Shown here piece after piece: positions 27,096-32,328 of a stretch of 64,000 nucleotides of DNA. The translations under genes were made by a program, and so were the position numbers. The stretch is from positions 62,001 to 126,000 of the forward strand of contig JACVZY010000081.1 of the NCBI GenBank assembly GCA_014654705.1, read 5' to 3'. Below the pieces are notes generated by a model. The model worked only from the letters and a program-made list of their open reading frames with translations, was not told where the DNA came from and did no database searches. Positions within the stretch are counted from its first letter, which is position 1. Each line of letters starts with the position of its first letter. The DNA is from Ignavibacteria bacterium. Its GTDB lineage: Bacteria; Bacteroidota; Ignavibacteria; Kapaibacteriales; UBA4661.

Positions 27096-27126
27096 GTCAA
27101 CCTTCCCGCTGTTCAGTTCGTCTAAC
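27096..27126 (+). promoter_or_regulatory. ECF-type promoter of the sigma/anti-sigma operon
   Basis: -35-like GTCAAC at 27096-27101, a 17-nt spacer, and -10-like CGTCTAAC at 27119-27126. The -10 contains the CGTC core common to many ECF promoters. The same elements with identical spacing occur before the DUF1573 gene at 28749-28779, and bases around and between the boxes (TT, CCGC, TTC, TTCG) also match. The start codon of the sigma gene is 37 bp downstream, which fits autoregulation. Confidence 0.7.
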
Positions 27127-27163
27127 CCACATTGTTCCCGATTCGCGTATTCACGATGTTTTC

Positions 27164-27802
27164 ATGGCACAACTGCACACGCTTTCCGATGAACCACATT
27201 TGATAGAACGCATGAAAAGCAGTGATGCCGCCGTGCGCAATGCAGCTTTCCGCGAGTTTGTGCGCTTGAATATGCGACGTGTTTACGCGCACGCATACCA
27301 ACTCTCCGGCAACAGCGACGATGCAGACGATCTCACACAAGAAGTGTTTGTGCGGGCGCTGGAGGCGCTACCTCGTTTTCAGGGCGCTTCGGCATTGGCT
27401 ACGTGGTTGCATCGCATCACGGTGAACCTGCACATTGACTTCACGCGAAGCGCTCGGTATCGCTACGCGGCGGCGTGGGATGATACGCGCGACAACGATG
27501 CGACGCACACACTTACCACTAGCGCCGCACCACTCCCCGATGCAAGAGCGGACGGCGCTTTTCGGCACGCGCATTTTGAGCAAGCGCTTGGCACTCTTCC
27601 TGCGCAACAGCGCACTGTTGTTGTGCTGCGCTATTTGCAAGAATACTCACTGGAAGAAATTGCAGAAGAACTCGGCGTAACGCTTGGAACGGTTAAAACA
27701 CTGATATTTCGTGCTGTGCGAGGCTTGCGCAAAGCTCTCAGCATCTACGAACAGGAATTTTCAACGACATCATTTTCTCGGATAAGCAATGAAGACAAAT
27801 AA
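27164..27802 (+). CDS. ECF-subfamily RNA polymerase sigma factor
   Basis: A 212-residue two-domain sigma factor. Region 2 (~25-95) contains the -10 recognition and core-binding helices (DDADDLTQEVFVRALEAL; GASALATWLHRITVNLHIDF). Region 4 (~140-195) contains LGTLPAQQRTVVVLRY and the helix-turn-helix EEIAEELGVTLGTVKTLIFRA. The linker between them is long and acidic. There is no region 1 or 3 and no C-terminal SnoaL-like extension. The next gene overlaps its 3' end by 14 bp and encodes a membrane protein in the position of an anti-sigma factor. The matching promoters before this gene and before DUF1573 suggest that it transcribes both. Confidence 0.95.
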   Translation: MAQLHTLSDEPHLIERMKSSDAAVRNAAFREFVRLNMRRVYAHAYQLSGNSDDADDLTQEVFVRALEALPRFQGASALATWLHRITVNLHIDFTRSARYRYAAAWDDTRDNDATHTLTTSAAPLPDARADGAFRHAHFEQALGTLPAQQRTVVVLRYLQEYSLEEIAEELGVTLGTVKTLIFRAVRGLRKALSIYEQEFSTTSFSRISNEDK

Positions 27803-28670
27803 AAATTTGCAAGACGACCCGCAAAATAGGCATCTCCGAGCTGAGTGTGAGGCGCGTATGATGGAGGCTTTGGAGCGGAATGATGCTGATGAACTGCCCG
27901 AAAGCGCACAAGAGCGCCTTGCAGTGCTTTTTGCGCTCTTTCCTGATTTGCACAAAGAGTACAAAGAAATGCAGATGACGCTTGGTGTGATGCAATCTTC
28001 GTCTATACCTTCGCAACGCAGTAATGATGAATGGTCAGCACTTGAGCGGCGCATTGTTGCTCGCGTCGGCGCAGAAGCACCGATAAACATGGCACCGCCC
28101 GATTCGATACCGCAACGAGTGTCCGCTATTTTTGCGTTGTACCCGATTTCGCTTGCTGTTAGGCGCCTTGCAGCTATTGCGGCGATTTTTCTTGGCGGGA
28201 TTTTTCTTGGAAGATGGTCTGTGAGTGGCGAGGCATCAGGTAAACAAGATAGAATAACACTTGCTGAACATTCTGCTGCTCAGAATACTGCTCTTGAGCG
28301 TCGCATTTCATCACAGGGTGAAGCACAAGAGACCGAAATAGAACATTTTCTCAACGACGCGCATTTGCTCATGTTGGGCGTAATGTCTATGAACGCCGAG
28401 TGCGGTGTGGCGAACCCGAAAACGCTCGTTGCGCAGCGTGAGCAGTGTATCGCACTGATGGCACAAGCACAGGAATTGCGACGAACACTCTCTCCTGAGG
28501 AACGGATGCGCTTGGCGCACGTGATTGTTCAGGTGGAGTTTGCCCTTGCCGAGCTTGCCGGAACGCAGCCTGCGGCAGTCAATGCCTCCATGATTCGGAA
28601 ACTGCAAGCGCATACCGATGATGCGCTCTGCGAGGTCTCTGCGGCATTAGCAACCACACGCTCACAATAA
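27789..28670 (+). CDS. Putative membrane anti-sigma factor
   Basis: A 293-residue protein with one membrane helix at ~118-138 (LAAIAAIFLGGIFLGRW). The N-terminal ~115 residues are cytoplasmic and charged and would bind the sigma factor; the C-terminal ~150 residues are helical, with two Cys (in NAECGV and REQCIAL), and would lie in the periplasm as a sensor. There is no recognisable zinc-binding HxxxCxxC motif of the ZAS type. The call rests mainly on the 14-bp overlap with the ECF gene and the single-helix topology, both classical for anti-sigma factors. The sequence itself matches no family I can name. Confidence 0.75.
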   Translation: MKTNKNLQDDPQNRHLRAECEARMMEALERNDADELPESAQERLAVLFALFPDLHKEYKEMQMTLGVMQSSSIPSQRSNDEWSALERRIVARVGAEAPINMAPPDSIPQRVSAIFALYPISLAVRRLAAIAAIFLGGIFLGRWSVSGEASGKQDRITLAEHSAAQNTALERRISSQGEAQETEIEHFLNDAHLLMLGVMSMNAECGVANPKTLVAQREQCIALMAQAQELRRTLSPEERMRLAHVIVQVEFALAELAGTQPAAVNASMIRKLQAHTDDALCEVSAALATTRSQ

Positions 28671-28710
28671 CGCATTCGACGAAGAATACCGTTTTTACTA
28701 CAATTCGTTG

Positions 28711-28718
28711 TATCTTTG
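28711..28718 (+). promoter_or_regulatory. Possible second, housekeeping -7 element before DUF1573
   Basis: TATCTTTG is an exact TAnnTTTG match. A good TTTG -33 box at 19-21 bp is missing, so this is weak. If real, the DUF1573 gene has both a housekeeping and an ECF promoter. Confidence 0.3.
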
Positions 28719-28748
28719 TGGTACTTGTTCGAGAATTGATTTTTTTTT

Positions 28749-28779
28749 GTCAACTTTTCCGCACTTCATTTCGTCTAAC
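28749..28779 (+). promoter_or_regulatory. ECF-type promoter of the DUF1573 gene
   Basis: GTCAAC at 28749-28754, 17-nt spacer, CGTCTAAC at 28772-28779: both boxes and the spacing equal those before the ECF sigma gene. The ATG at 28823 lies 43 bp after the -10 box, which supports that start over a longer frame opening at 28718. Confidence 0.7.
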
Positions 28780-28822: not shown

Positions 28823-29578
28823 ATGAATACATTCACAAAAACACTGGCTACATCTGCTCTTGCCCTCCTTATGACAGCAACCGCCTACGCACAACCCAAA
28901 ATTGAAATCAAAGGCGGCGACACATTTGACTGGGGCAACGTAACCGACATATCGAAGCCGCTTGCCGGGCAAGTGGAAATAAAGAACATCGGCGATAAAG
29001 ATTTGGTGATTACCCAAGCAAAACCTGCCTGCGGTTGCACCAGCGAGGCTCTGGAACGCAGTAACATCAAGCCGGGTGAATCCACAACGCTCAAATTCAC
29101 TTTGAACGTCGGCTCGGCAAGCGGACAGCTTATGAAATCCATTACTATCAGCAGCAACGCAGCACCGGATTCGGTCAAAGTGCTGTTTTTGAAAGCAAAC
29201 ATTATGCGCCTCATGCAAGTTGACCAGTTTGTGTCATTTTACCCAATGTATGTTGGCAAAGAATCGACAGGCATGGCAAAAATCAAAAATAACGGTGCAT
29301 CTCCCGTGAAATTGCTGGAGTTCACCGGCAATAACGGTTTGACCATTGCGAAAAAAGCGCCCATCACCATTCCTGCGAACACAGAAATTGAACTTCCGGT
29401 AAAAGTTGTCGGTCCTGCGCAGCCGGGTCCATTCTATGGTCAAGTCCTTGTTAAAACCGACCACCCCGACCAACAATACAAGTTGCTTGAAATTCGTGCT
29501 TACGGCGAAAACAAACCTGCCCCGGCAGCAACACCACAATCGTCACCGGCAATGCTTCCGAGTGGCGGTACAAAGTAA
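28823..29578 (+). CDS. Secreted DUF1573 protein
   Basis: A 251-residue exported protein with a classical signal peptide (residues 1-23, ending AYA before QPKIEIKG). Residues ~25-130 form a DUF1573 domain, an Ig-like ASPM/SPD-2/hydin-related fold, with its hallmark PACGCTS (paired cysteines) and the strand pattern FxxKNxGxxxLxI. A second similar beta domain covers ~135-225, and the tail is Pro/Ala/Ser rich. DUF1573 proteins are abundant in Bacteroidota envelopes but have no established function. A GTG-started frame extends upstream to 28718 but would run through the ECF promoter, so ATG 28823 is chosen. A strong terminator follows at 29627. Confidence 0.9.
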   Translation: MNTFTKTLATSALALLMTATAYAQPKIEIKGGDTFDWGNVTDISKPLAGQVEIKNIGDKDLVITQAKPACGCTSEALERSNIKPGESTTLKFTLNVGSASGQLMKSITISSNAAPDSVKVLFLKANIMRLMQVDQFVSFYPMYVGKESTGMAKIKNNGASPVKLLEFTGNNGLTIAKKAPITIPANTEIELPVKVVGPAQPGPFYGQVLVKTDHPDQQYKLLEIRAYGENKPAPAATPQSSPAMLPSGGTK

Positions 29579-29739: not shown

Positions 29740-30069
29740 ATGATTATGACACGCACAAAAACAGAACTTTTTACGCCGGACGAAACACGTCTAGCCGAAC
29801 TCGCTAAAGCGTTGGCGCATCCGGCGCGTATTGCAATACTCAAGATGCTTGCCACGAAAAACTCCTGCATCTGCGGGGAAATTGTGGATGAACTTCCGCT
29901 TGCGCAAGCAACCGTTTCGCAGCATCTGAAAGAACTCAAGAACGTGGGGCTTATCAAAGGCGAAATTGACGGACCCAAAGTATGCTATTGCCTGAATGAA
30001 GACGGCATCAAGGAACTACGCCTGCTCTGGACTGCTCTGGAAGCAACCGTTATGGCGAAATGTTGCTAA
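29740..30069 (+). CDS. arsR: ArsR-family metalloid-responsive repressor
   Basis: A 109-residue winged-helix repressor. The DNA-recognition region reads [24 protein letters not shown]. Cys43 and Cys45 ([11 protein letters not shown]) sit at the place of the CxC of ArsR repressors that bind As(III), and extra Cys lie in VCYCLNEDG and at the C-terminal AKCC, so the inducer-binding site could be three-coordinate. A dyad at 29700-29715 is the probable operator. The next genes (arsN2-like acetyltransferase, membrane protein, arsM) fit an arsenic regulon. Met3 (29746) is an alternative start. Binding of Sb(III) is also expected for such sites. Confidence 0.9.
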
Positions 30070-31422: not shown

Positions 31423-32328
31423 ATGAATACAACACTTGCAACCACCAACGAAGCACTCAAAGCGCTTGTTCAGGAAAAATACAGCGCTATTGCTGAAACG
31501 GGTGAAGGATGCGGCTGCGGTCCGACGTGCTGTAGCACCACGTCAGATGTCAGCTTGCCGACAGTAAAGAATGAAAAGCCTGCCGAAGCAAGCTGCTGCG
31601 CTCCCACATGTTGCAGCGATACTGCCGCAGATGGCGGCATACCGACGGTGATGAACGAAGATTATACCCAGCTTGCGGGATATGTACCCGATGCTGACTT
31701 GGCGCTTGGTTGTGGCATACCGACGCAATTTGCACAAATTCGCTCCGGCAATACAGTCGTTGATTTGGGTTCCGGTGCCGGCAATGATGCCTTTGTTGCG
31801 CGGGCACTTGTCGGCAATAACGGGCGTGTGATTGGTGTGGATTTCACGGAAGCAATGGTTGCAAAAGCACGGACGAACAACGCGAAAATGGGATTTACCA
31901 ATGTCGAATTTGTACAAGGCGATATTGAGAATATGCCGCTTTCAAATGATATAGCCGATGTGGTCGTCAGTAATTGCGTTTTGAATCTGGTACCGAATAA
32001 ACACGCTGCTTTTAGCGAGGTACTTCGGATTATGAAGAGTGGTGCACACTTTGCTGTATCGGATATTGTCGTGAGCGGCACGCTGCCCAAAGGAATACAG
32101 CAAGCGGCAGAGATGTATGCGGGGTGCGTTTCGGGGGCAATCGCAAAAGCGGAGTATTTGGAGATTATTGAGAAAACAGGTTTTGCGAATGTATCAGTGC
32201 CGAAAGAGCGTGAAATCCATCTTCCCGACGAACTGCTGCTGCAATATCTCACTCCGGCAGAGTTGAAAGATTACCGCGCTTCCGGTGCACGAATTTTGAG
32301 CATTACGGTCTATGGAGAAAAGCCGTAA
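31423..32328 (+). CDS. arsM: Arsenite S-adenosylmethionine methyltransferase with duplicated Cys-rich leader
   Basis: A 301-residue cytoplasmic enzyme that methylates As(III) using S-adenosylmethionine. SAM motif I is VDLGSGAGNDAFVA. The conserved arsenic-binding Cys are visible as C97 (GCGIPT), C185 (SNCVLNLV) and C235 (YAGCVSGA); the 50-residue distance between the last two is the same as in characterised ArsM (C174/C224). The N-terminus is unusual: two imperfect copies of a ~22-residue unit carry GCGCGPTCCS (C30, C32, C36, C37) and SCCAPTCCS (C58, C59, C63, C64), each followed by a PTVxNE segment, so eight Cys fall within 35 residues. They may bind or channel metalloid. An ArsR half-site precedes the gene. 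Confidence 0.93.
   Translation: MNTTLATTNEALKALVQEKYSAIAETGEGCGCGPTCCSTTSDVSLPTVKNEKPAEASCCAPTCCSDTAADGGIPTVMNEDYTQLAGYVPDADLALGCGIPTQFAQIRSGNTVVDLGSGAGNDAFVARALVGNNGRVIGVDFTEAMVAKARTNNAKMGFTNVEFVQGDIENMPLSNDIADVVVSNCVLNLVPNKHAAFSEVLRIMKSGAHFAVSDIVVSGTLPKGIQQAAEMYAGCVSGAIAKAEYLEIIEKTGFANVSVPKEREIHLPDELLLQYLTPAELKDYRASGARILSITVYGEKP

Follow-up and report, generated by a model that had tools for sequence, protein, structure and literature searches.

A probable autoregulated ECF sigma factor regulon of a Kapaibacterium-like bacterium, with DUF1573 and thioredoxin-like genes as predicted direct targets

The window, a stretch of 64,000 nucleotides of DNA from a genome of 5.72 Mb (G000 among the genomes compared), carries on its forward strand the genes of a sigma factor, a putative anti-sigma factor and a DUF1573 protein. 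The sigma factor (27164..27802, 212 aa) is of the ECF type and contains only the sigma2 and sigma4 domains (Sigma70_r2, E 6e-18; Sigma70_r4_2, E 3.7e-18; TIGR02937, 110 bits against a cut-off of 42.9); the closest named relatives are Candidatus Kapaibacterium MAGs (Bacteroidota). The following reading frame (27789..28670, 293 aa) overlaps that of the sigma factor by 14 nt, is conserved downstream of it, adjoins it in relatives too, and has no Pfam match. We place its product as a putative anti-sigma factor by this overlap, by a helical N-terminus and by a single hydrophobic segment, which was read from the sequence near residues 122-142. The AlphaFold model of this protein is poor (overall pLDDT 45), with helices at residues 11-29, 38-50 and 52-70 (block pLDDT 57-85) and at 77-92 (pLDDT under 40). 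For comparison, a class I anti-sigma domain (ASDI) consists of a bundle of three N-terminal helices and a fourth helix. The half after the hydrophobic stretch is helical, is taken as periplasmic and bears Cys205, Cys220 and Cys281 (codons at 28401, 28446 and 28629). The DUF1573 protein (28823..29578, 251 aa; PF07610, E 6.2e-23, 81.1 bits against a gathering cut-off of 26.1) starts with what looks by eye like a signal peptide and has a CGC motif made of Cys70 and Cys72 (codons 29030-29032 and 29036-29038); a CxC followed by T is present in 24/24 distinct homologues aligned, and no sequence in the PDB matched the protein at E <= 0.1. DUF1573 appears in the tables of two papers as a selenoprotein with UGC (PMC9312934, PMC13188914). 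Further downstream, the ORF translations resemble by eye an ArsR-like regulator (29740-30069) and an arsenite-methyltransferase-like protein (31423-32328).

Two candidate promoters precede these genes on the same strand. P1, before the sigma/anti-sigma operon (27096..27126), is an exact match with a -35 box GTCAAC at 27096-27101, a spacer of 17 nt and a -10 box CGTCTAAC at 27119-27126, and reads GTCAAC CTTCCCGCTGTTCAGTT CGTCTAAC from 27096. P2, before the DUF1573 gene (28749..28779), is likewise an exact match to GTCAAC-N17-CGTCTAAC and reads GTCAAC TTTTCCGCACTTCATTT CGTCTAAC from 28749. The same boxes at the same N17 spacing are thus confirmed at both places, as the preliminary description had it, and so are the further matching bases that it reported between the boxes, the spacers being identical at 12 of 17 positions. 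From the end of the -10 box to the ATG there are 37 nt for the sigma factor (ATG at 27164) and 43 nt for DUF1573 (ATG at 28823), and the counterpart of P2 in G001 lies at an equal distance from its DUF1573 ATG. By their letters, P1 and P2 would be ECF promoters, with AAC in the -35 box (GTCAAC) and CGT in the -10 box (CGTCTAAC), a combination that passages of PMC8103513 give as the hallmark of this promoter class. When the region was scanned for sigma-70 promoters and for terminators, the scores stayed near the shuffle level.

How much the pair of sites means depends on how the motif is searched. Across the 5.72 Mb genome, only P1 and P2 match GTCAAC-N15..19-CGTCTAA exactly, both with N17; the reversed pattern of the exact core motif also has two in the whole genome, so that the raw count is no enrichment and the weight lies in the position of the sites. 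Allowing up to two mismatches, we found 71 matches of the core motif in the whole genome (P1 and P2 included), fewer than the 192 of the reversed control; besides P1 and P2, 28 of these were inspected, and 25 lie inside ORFs of at least 100 codons. The genome scan that had been proposed as a check thus returned P1 and P2 alone as exact matches, and its relaxed matches were fewer than those of the control and, where inspected, mostly within ORFs. The short core was dropped as a means to find the regulon, since with mismatches it yields noise: the idea of a motif that leads to other members survives in an extended form, GTCAAC and CGTCTAA as written being too short. This extended motif, TGTCAACCTT-N14-CGTCTAA with at most one mismatch, has three matches in the genome of the window, all before a start codon and outside long reading frames, and none for the reversed control. 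For the 10 family genomes the counts of motif and control are 19 and 0, and for all 61 genomes they are 21 and 1.

The 19 family matches precede eight sigma factor genes (G000, G001, G002, G004, G005, G006, G007 and G009), five DUF1573 genes (G000, G001, G002, G007 and G009), three genes of thioredoxin-like proteins and three starts that are cut by a contig end or an early stop, namely a signal-peptide start at a contig end (G002:C598) and, on G009:C170, a signal-peptide start with an early stop together with a near-identical copy at the contig end. On this last contig (L127) the near-identical promoter copies stand at 72-102 and 2190-2220, and the signal peptide after the copy at 2190 resembles the start in G002:C598. 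A matrix built from seven sigma factor gene promoters only, with p taken from Markov shuffles (2000 shuffles, floor 0.0005), recovers P2 at p = 0.0005, and at the same p the DUF1573 promoters of G000, G001, G002, G007 and G009 (C170) and the thioredoxin-like gene promoters of G000, G001 and G007. With this matrix no promoter was found before DUF1573 in G003, G004, G005, G006 and the operon copy of G009, before three further DUF1573 paralogues (two in G001, one in G002; lowest p 0.037, in G001), or before the thioredoxin-like genes of G009 (C252) and G011 and within the 300 nt tested in G005. A weak candidate before DUF1573 in G006 (GTCATCCTTT...) had p = 0.08 and was not counted.

The thioredoxin-like target of the window's own genome lies on another contig (G000:C111:19731) and encodes a secreted thioredoxin-fold/TPR protein. 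The extended motif precedes a Thioredoxin_9/TPR protein with WCGDS at G000:C111:19575, in G001:C357 and in G005:C1; in the last of these, 245 nt separate the site from the earliest ATG in the frame. The fold was assigned by PF14595 at E 5e-6, just above the cut-off, and PADLOC matched neither this protein nor the anti-sigma factor. Its motif is WCGDS with a single cysteine, and classical dithiol chemistry is therefore not implied. Outside the family, the extended motif was matched at G016:C24:89735 (L149) and G024:C154:48470 (L148), about 90 and 230 nt, respectively, before genes whose secreted products, each about 400 aa long, match no Pfam family and are possibly further targets; a by-eye likeness of these two proteins to metallo-beta-lactamases was dropped, as Pfam matches neither.

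We searched 61 genomes for the sigma factor and compared the regions of the 20 top matches. An element GT[CA]A[AT]C-N17/18-NGTC stands before the sigma factor gene in 18 of these 20 regions, 17 times with N17 and once with N18 (G040), and in other families the boxes and the spacing are still kept where identity to the sigma factor of the window falls to about 37-46%. Among the regions compared, the element was not found before the sigma factor gene in G014 and G031, and there no DUF1573 gene adjoins and the next gene is unlike this anti-sigma factor. In eight genomes of one family (G012, G021, G028, G035, G040, G045, G050 and G054; loci L050-L053, L055-L057 and L059) the -10 box, in the form GTCAAC-N17/18-NGTCTATG, overlaps the likely start codon of the sigma factor; since transcription would normally begin past this ATG, the promoter may drive only the anti-sigma factor and DUF1573 genes, or translation may start elsewhere.

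DUF1573 adjoins the sigma operon in 15 of the 20 regions as well as in the window. The gap between the anti-sigma factor and DUF1573 genes is 7-91 nt in 12 genomes outside the genus of the window, 130-276 nt in G001, G005 and G006, and 152 nt in the window itself. In 12 genomes (G009 with its other copy; families f4, f8 and f9) the sigma operon has DUF1573 in third place, and in G005 and G006 it comes after the operon with no clear motif of its own; a DUF1573 homologue of 32% in G004 lacks one too. Among the genomes examined, a promoter of its own was found only in G000, G001, G002, G007 and one copy of G009, so the separately promoted DUF1573 gene of the preliminary description holds for these and not for the rest, in which the gene is third in the operon or devoid of the motif. 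Based on the short gaps outside the genus and the longer ones within it, DUF1573 was probably once the third gene of the operon and later, in this lineage, acquired a separate promoter copy, an order of events that is read from the comparison.

Three features of the family genomes bear on the link between these sites and the sigma factor. One is relocation: in G002, G007 and G009 (where C170 holds a second copy) DUF1573 lies on a contig other than that of the sigma factor, and the promoter is kept. Another is loss, as the two family genomes without a sigma factor orthologue, G003 (99% complete) and G008 (only 70%), do not contain the motif; G003, a congener, retains DUF1573 without the motif and has no match to the thioredoxin-like protein either. 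The last is co-variation: the promoters of the sigma factor, DUF1573 and thioredoxin-like genes of G007 all read GTCATC, a form seen in 0 of the 17 other family matches, for which the chance is 1/969 if the sites vary independently and the near-identical copies of G009 are counted once (16 others). The thioredoxin-like site of G007 is outside the 19, having two further mismatches to the GTCATC form; in G001 there is a single unrelated match to GTCATC, which lacks a CGTC box, and by eye no residue in the recognition helix obviously explains the change. Promoter relocation, absence without the sigma factor and co-variation thus lend support to what had been predicted of this locus, namely a small regulon that is autoregulated and has DUF1573 among its direct targets.

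We therefore read the window, with a high degree of confidence, as carrying an autoregulated ECF regulon of a Kapaibacterium-like bacterium in which the genes of DUF1573 and the thioredoxin-like protein would be direct targets. ECF sigma factors are commonly held by a cognate anti-sigma factor and are often autoregulated, according to passages of PMC8103513 and PMC7406223. In our model, the membrane anti-sigma factor would hold the sigma factor until an envelope signal frees it; the freed sigma factor would bind GTCAACCTT-N14-CGTCTAA and transcribe its own sigma/anti-sigma operon from P1, DUF1573 from P2, which lies 1.65 kb further downstream, and the secreted thioredoxin-fold/TPR gene on the other contig (G000:C111:19731). 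The use of the sites by this particular sigma factor, the membrane location and inhibitory action of the anti-sigma factor and the release on an envelope signal are what we infer from the comparisons above.

A different way to read P2 would be as a non-functional resemblance, with DUF1573 transcribed only by read-through from P1. Such an arrangement would fit the 12 genomes outside the genus in which DUF1573 is a plain third gene of the operon, and also G005 and G006, which have no own promoter; but P2 is conserved in G001, and in the three genomes with DUF1573 on another contig the gene carries the same promoter where read-through from the sigma operon is impossible, and we regard this as very improbable. 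It is also conceivable, and in our judgement improbable, that these are real ECF promoters used by a paralogous ECF sigma factor, for instance the TonB-linked one (G000:C18), alone or together with the present one, in a shared or larger network. With 29 sigma factor matches at E <= 0.001 in the genome of the window, another ECF sigma factor could share the sites; the paralogue has a similar -35 helix (GTVKTL.FRA), and a conserved TGTCAACCTTTCTCAAAAAA.CGTCGTC site precedes a gene that is TonB-like by eye and a paralogous sigma factor in G000, G002 and G004 (G000:C18:1976, L131; G002:C71:805, L123; G004:C13:39338, L132), which may be a fourth target or the own promoter of the paralogue. Against this, the motif is missing from the two family genomes that lack the sigma factor, of which the second is the less complete, and it precedes the gene of this sigma factor in 8/8 family genomes that have one. 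Placement before its own gene is what an autoregulated sigma factor typically shows.

The anti-sigma factor and its relatives bear on the nature of the signal. All 19 anti-sigma factors of the order have at least three cysteines after the hydrophobic stretch, and C281 is invariant among them (19/19). The HX3CX2C motif of zinc anti-sigma factors (ZAS) is absent from the anti-sigma factor of the window and from 17 of its 18 homologues of the order, G025 alone having it, in the cytosolic part, and zf-HC2 was matched weakly in 2/19. A search of 296 genomes of the phylum with the profile of these 19 rows gave matches in 59, most over the N-terminal half only. The distribution of the system is patchy, since the profile matched nothing in 18 of the listed order members. 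Outside the order there are 14 loci with a nearly full-length match, which is continuous in 13 (L195-L207) and split into two pieces in G295:C4, and the counts that follow cover these 14 loci. A homologous sigma factor is upstream in 14/14, preceded in 11/14 by GT[CA]AAC-N17-NGTCT and in the other three, by eye, by N17 with GTCC (two GTAAAC, one GCGAAC). As in the window, these are operons of a homologous sigma factor and anti-sigma factor, in 11/14 with this promoter type; unlike in the window, the third gene is that of a secreted HEAT-repeat protein in 14/14 (13 by Pfam HEAT_2, one by a profile of the other 13) and not DUF1573, which is near only one of the loci (L206, upstream), and the half after the hydrophobic stretch contains no cysteine in 14/14. 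This HEAT profile found nothing in the 18 regions fetched or between 20 and 40 kb of the window. The cysteine and HEAT/DUF1573 counts come from related sequences and are not independent events, and the contrast in cysteines between the inside and the outside of the order may reflect few evolutionary events.

Given that the periplasmic cysteines are conserved in the order and not in the outside relatives examined, that the predicted targets encode one protein with CGC and one with a thioredoxin fold, and that the CxC of DUF1573 is found in 24/24 homologues of a family that includes a UGC selenoprotein, the signal could be thiol-related, a reading that we hold at slightly under an even chance; thiol sensing by the anti-sigma factor itself would be plausible. 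Still more tentatively, a phylum-wide ECF module could have changed its sensor and its output together, the anti-sigma factor gaining cysteines and the HEAT partner giving way to DUF1573, such that in this order the sigma factor would monitor the periplasmic thiol/disulfide state and induce DUF1573 and, in the family of the window, the thioredoxin-fold protein. The regulon as we describe it could also respond to general envelope stress, through proteolysis of the anti-sigma factor as for RseA and RsiW, with cysteines that only stabilise the fold. The anti-sigma factor of the window, with one hydrophobic stretch and without HX3CX2C, would suit this, as would SigW among the nearest solved structures of the sigma factor; the relatives outside the order have the same domain without cysteines, which therefore works without them. 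On the other side, the cysteines coincide with the exchange of HEAT for a CxC protein as the third gene product, and a thioredoxin fold is present in one further target; we see this form of signal as a serious candidate that falls somewhat short of probable.

The system belongs to a well-known type, and the joint change of sensor cysteines and output gene, as predicted from the sequences, is the part worth testing. RpoE-RseA of E. coli and SigW-RsiW of B. subtilis are autoregulated and have envelope targets. They share with the window a two-domain ECF sigma factor, a downstream anti-sigma factor and an AAC/CGT promoter before the own operon, features that passages of PMC8103513 present as hallmarks of the ECF family; they differ in that here cysteines are present, and no Pfam family is matched, in the half of the anti-sigma factor past the hydrophobic stretch, and in that the targets are DUF1573 and the thioredoxin-fold/TPR protein. 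RsrA (SigR) and RslA (SigL) are likewise cysteine-bearing anti-sigma factors (for RslA, passages of PMC2877774), and SigR is described as having thiol-related targets. The cysteines of RsrA and RslA form a cytosolic HX3CX2C zinc site, a motif that the protein of the window lacks (1/19 in the order); here, it is the predicted periplasmic half that holds the conserved cysteines, and a redox role for them is only proposed. In the literature on DUF1573 and on Kapabacteria sigma factors we recognised no account of this system, and in that on HEAT repeats with anti-sigma factors we found none of a sigma/anti-sigma/HEAT operon, most subscription papers being outside the scope of both searches. DUF1573 is still described in Pfam as of unknown function, and it gains here a candidate regulator, a promoter and co-regulated partners, which makes its role testable. 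If the thiol reading is true, the ECF system would be one that senses thiols in the periplasm, and DUF1573 would have a function assigned to it. A further suggestion of the comparison is that the promoter type of a conserved sigma/anti-sigma pair can stay the same as the sensor chemistry and the third gene change together.

Some minor observations accompany these results. A candidate site at C10:3893 is outside ORFs, with no start of a 60-codon ORF within 330 nt. The operon of sigma factor, anti-sigma factor and secreted HEAT-repeat protein (L195-L207, L218) is spread over several orders of Bacteroidota. In the genome of the window, GTAAAC-N17-CGTCTAA at G000:C77:4444 (L064, L133) lies 52 nt ahead of a gene for a lipoprotein rich in Gly and Ser, which has a clear AAGGAGG; with three mismatches to the extended motif, it is possibly a weak member of the regulon or a target of another ECF sigma factor.
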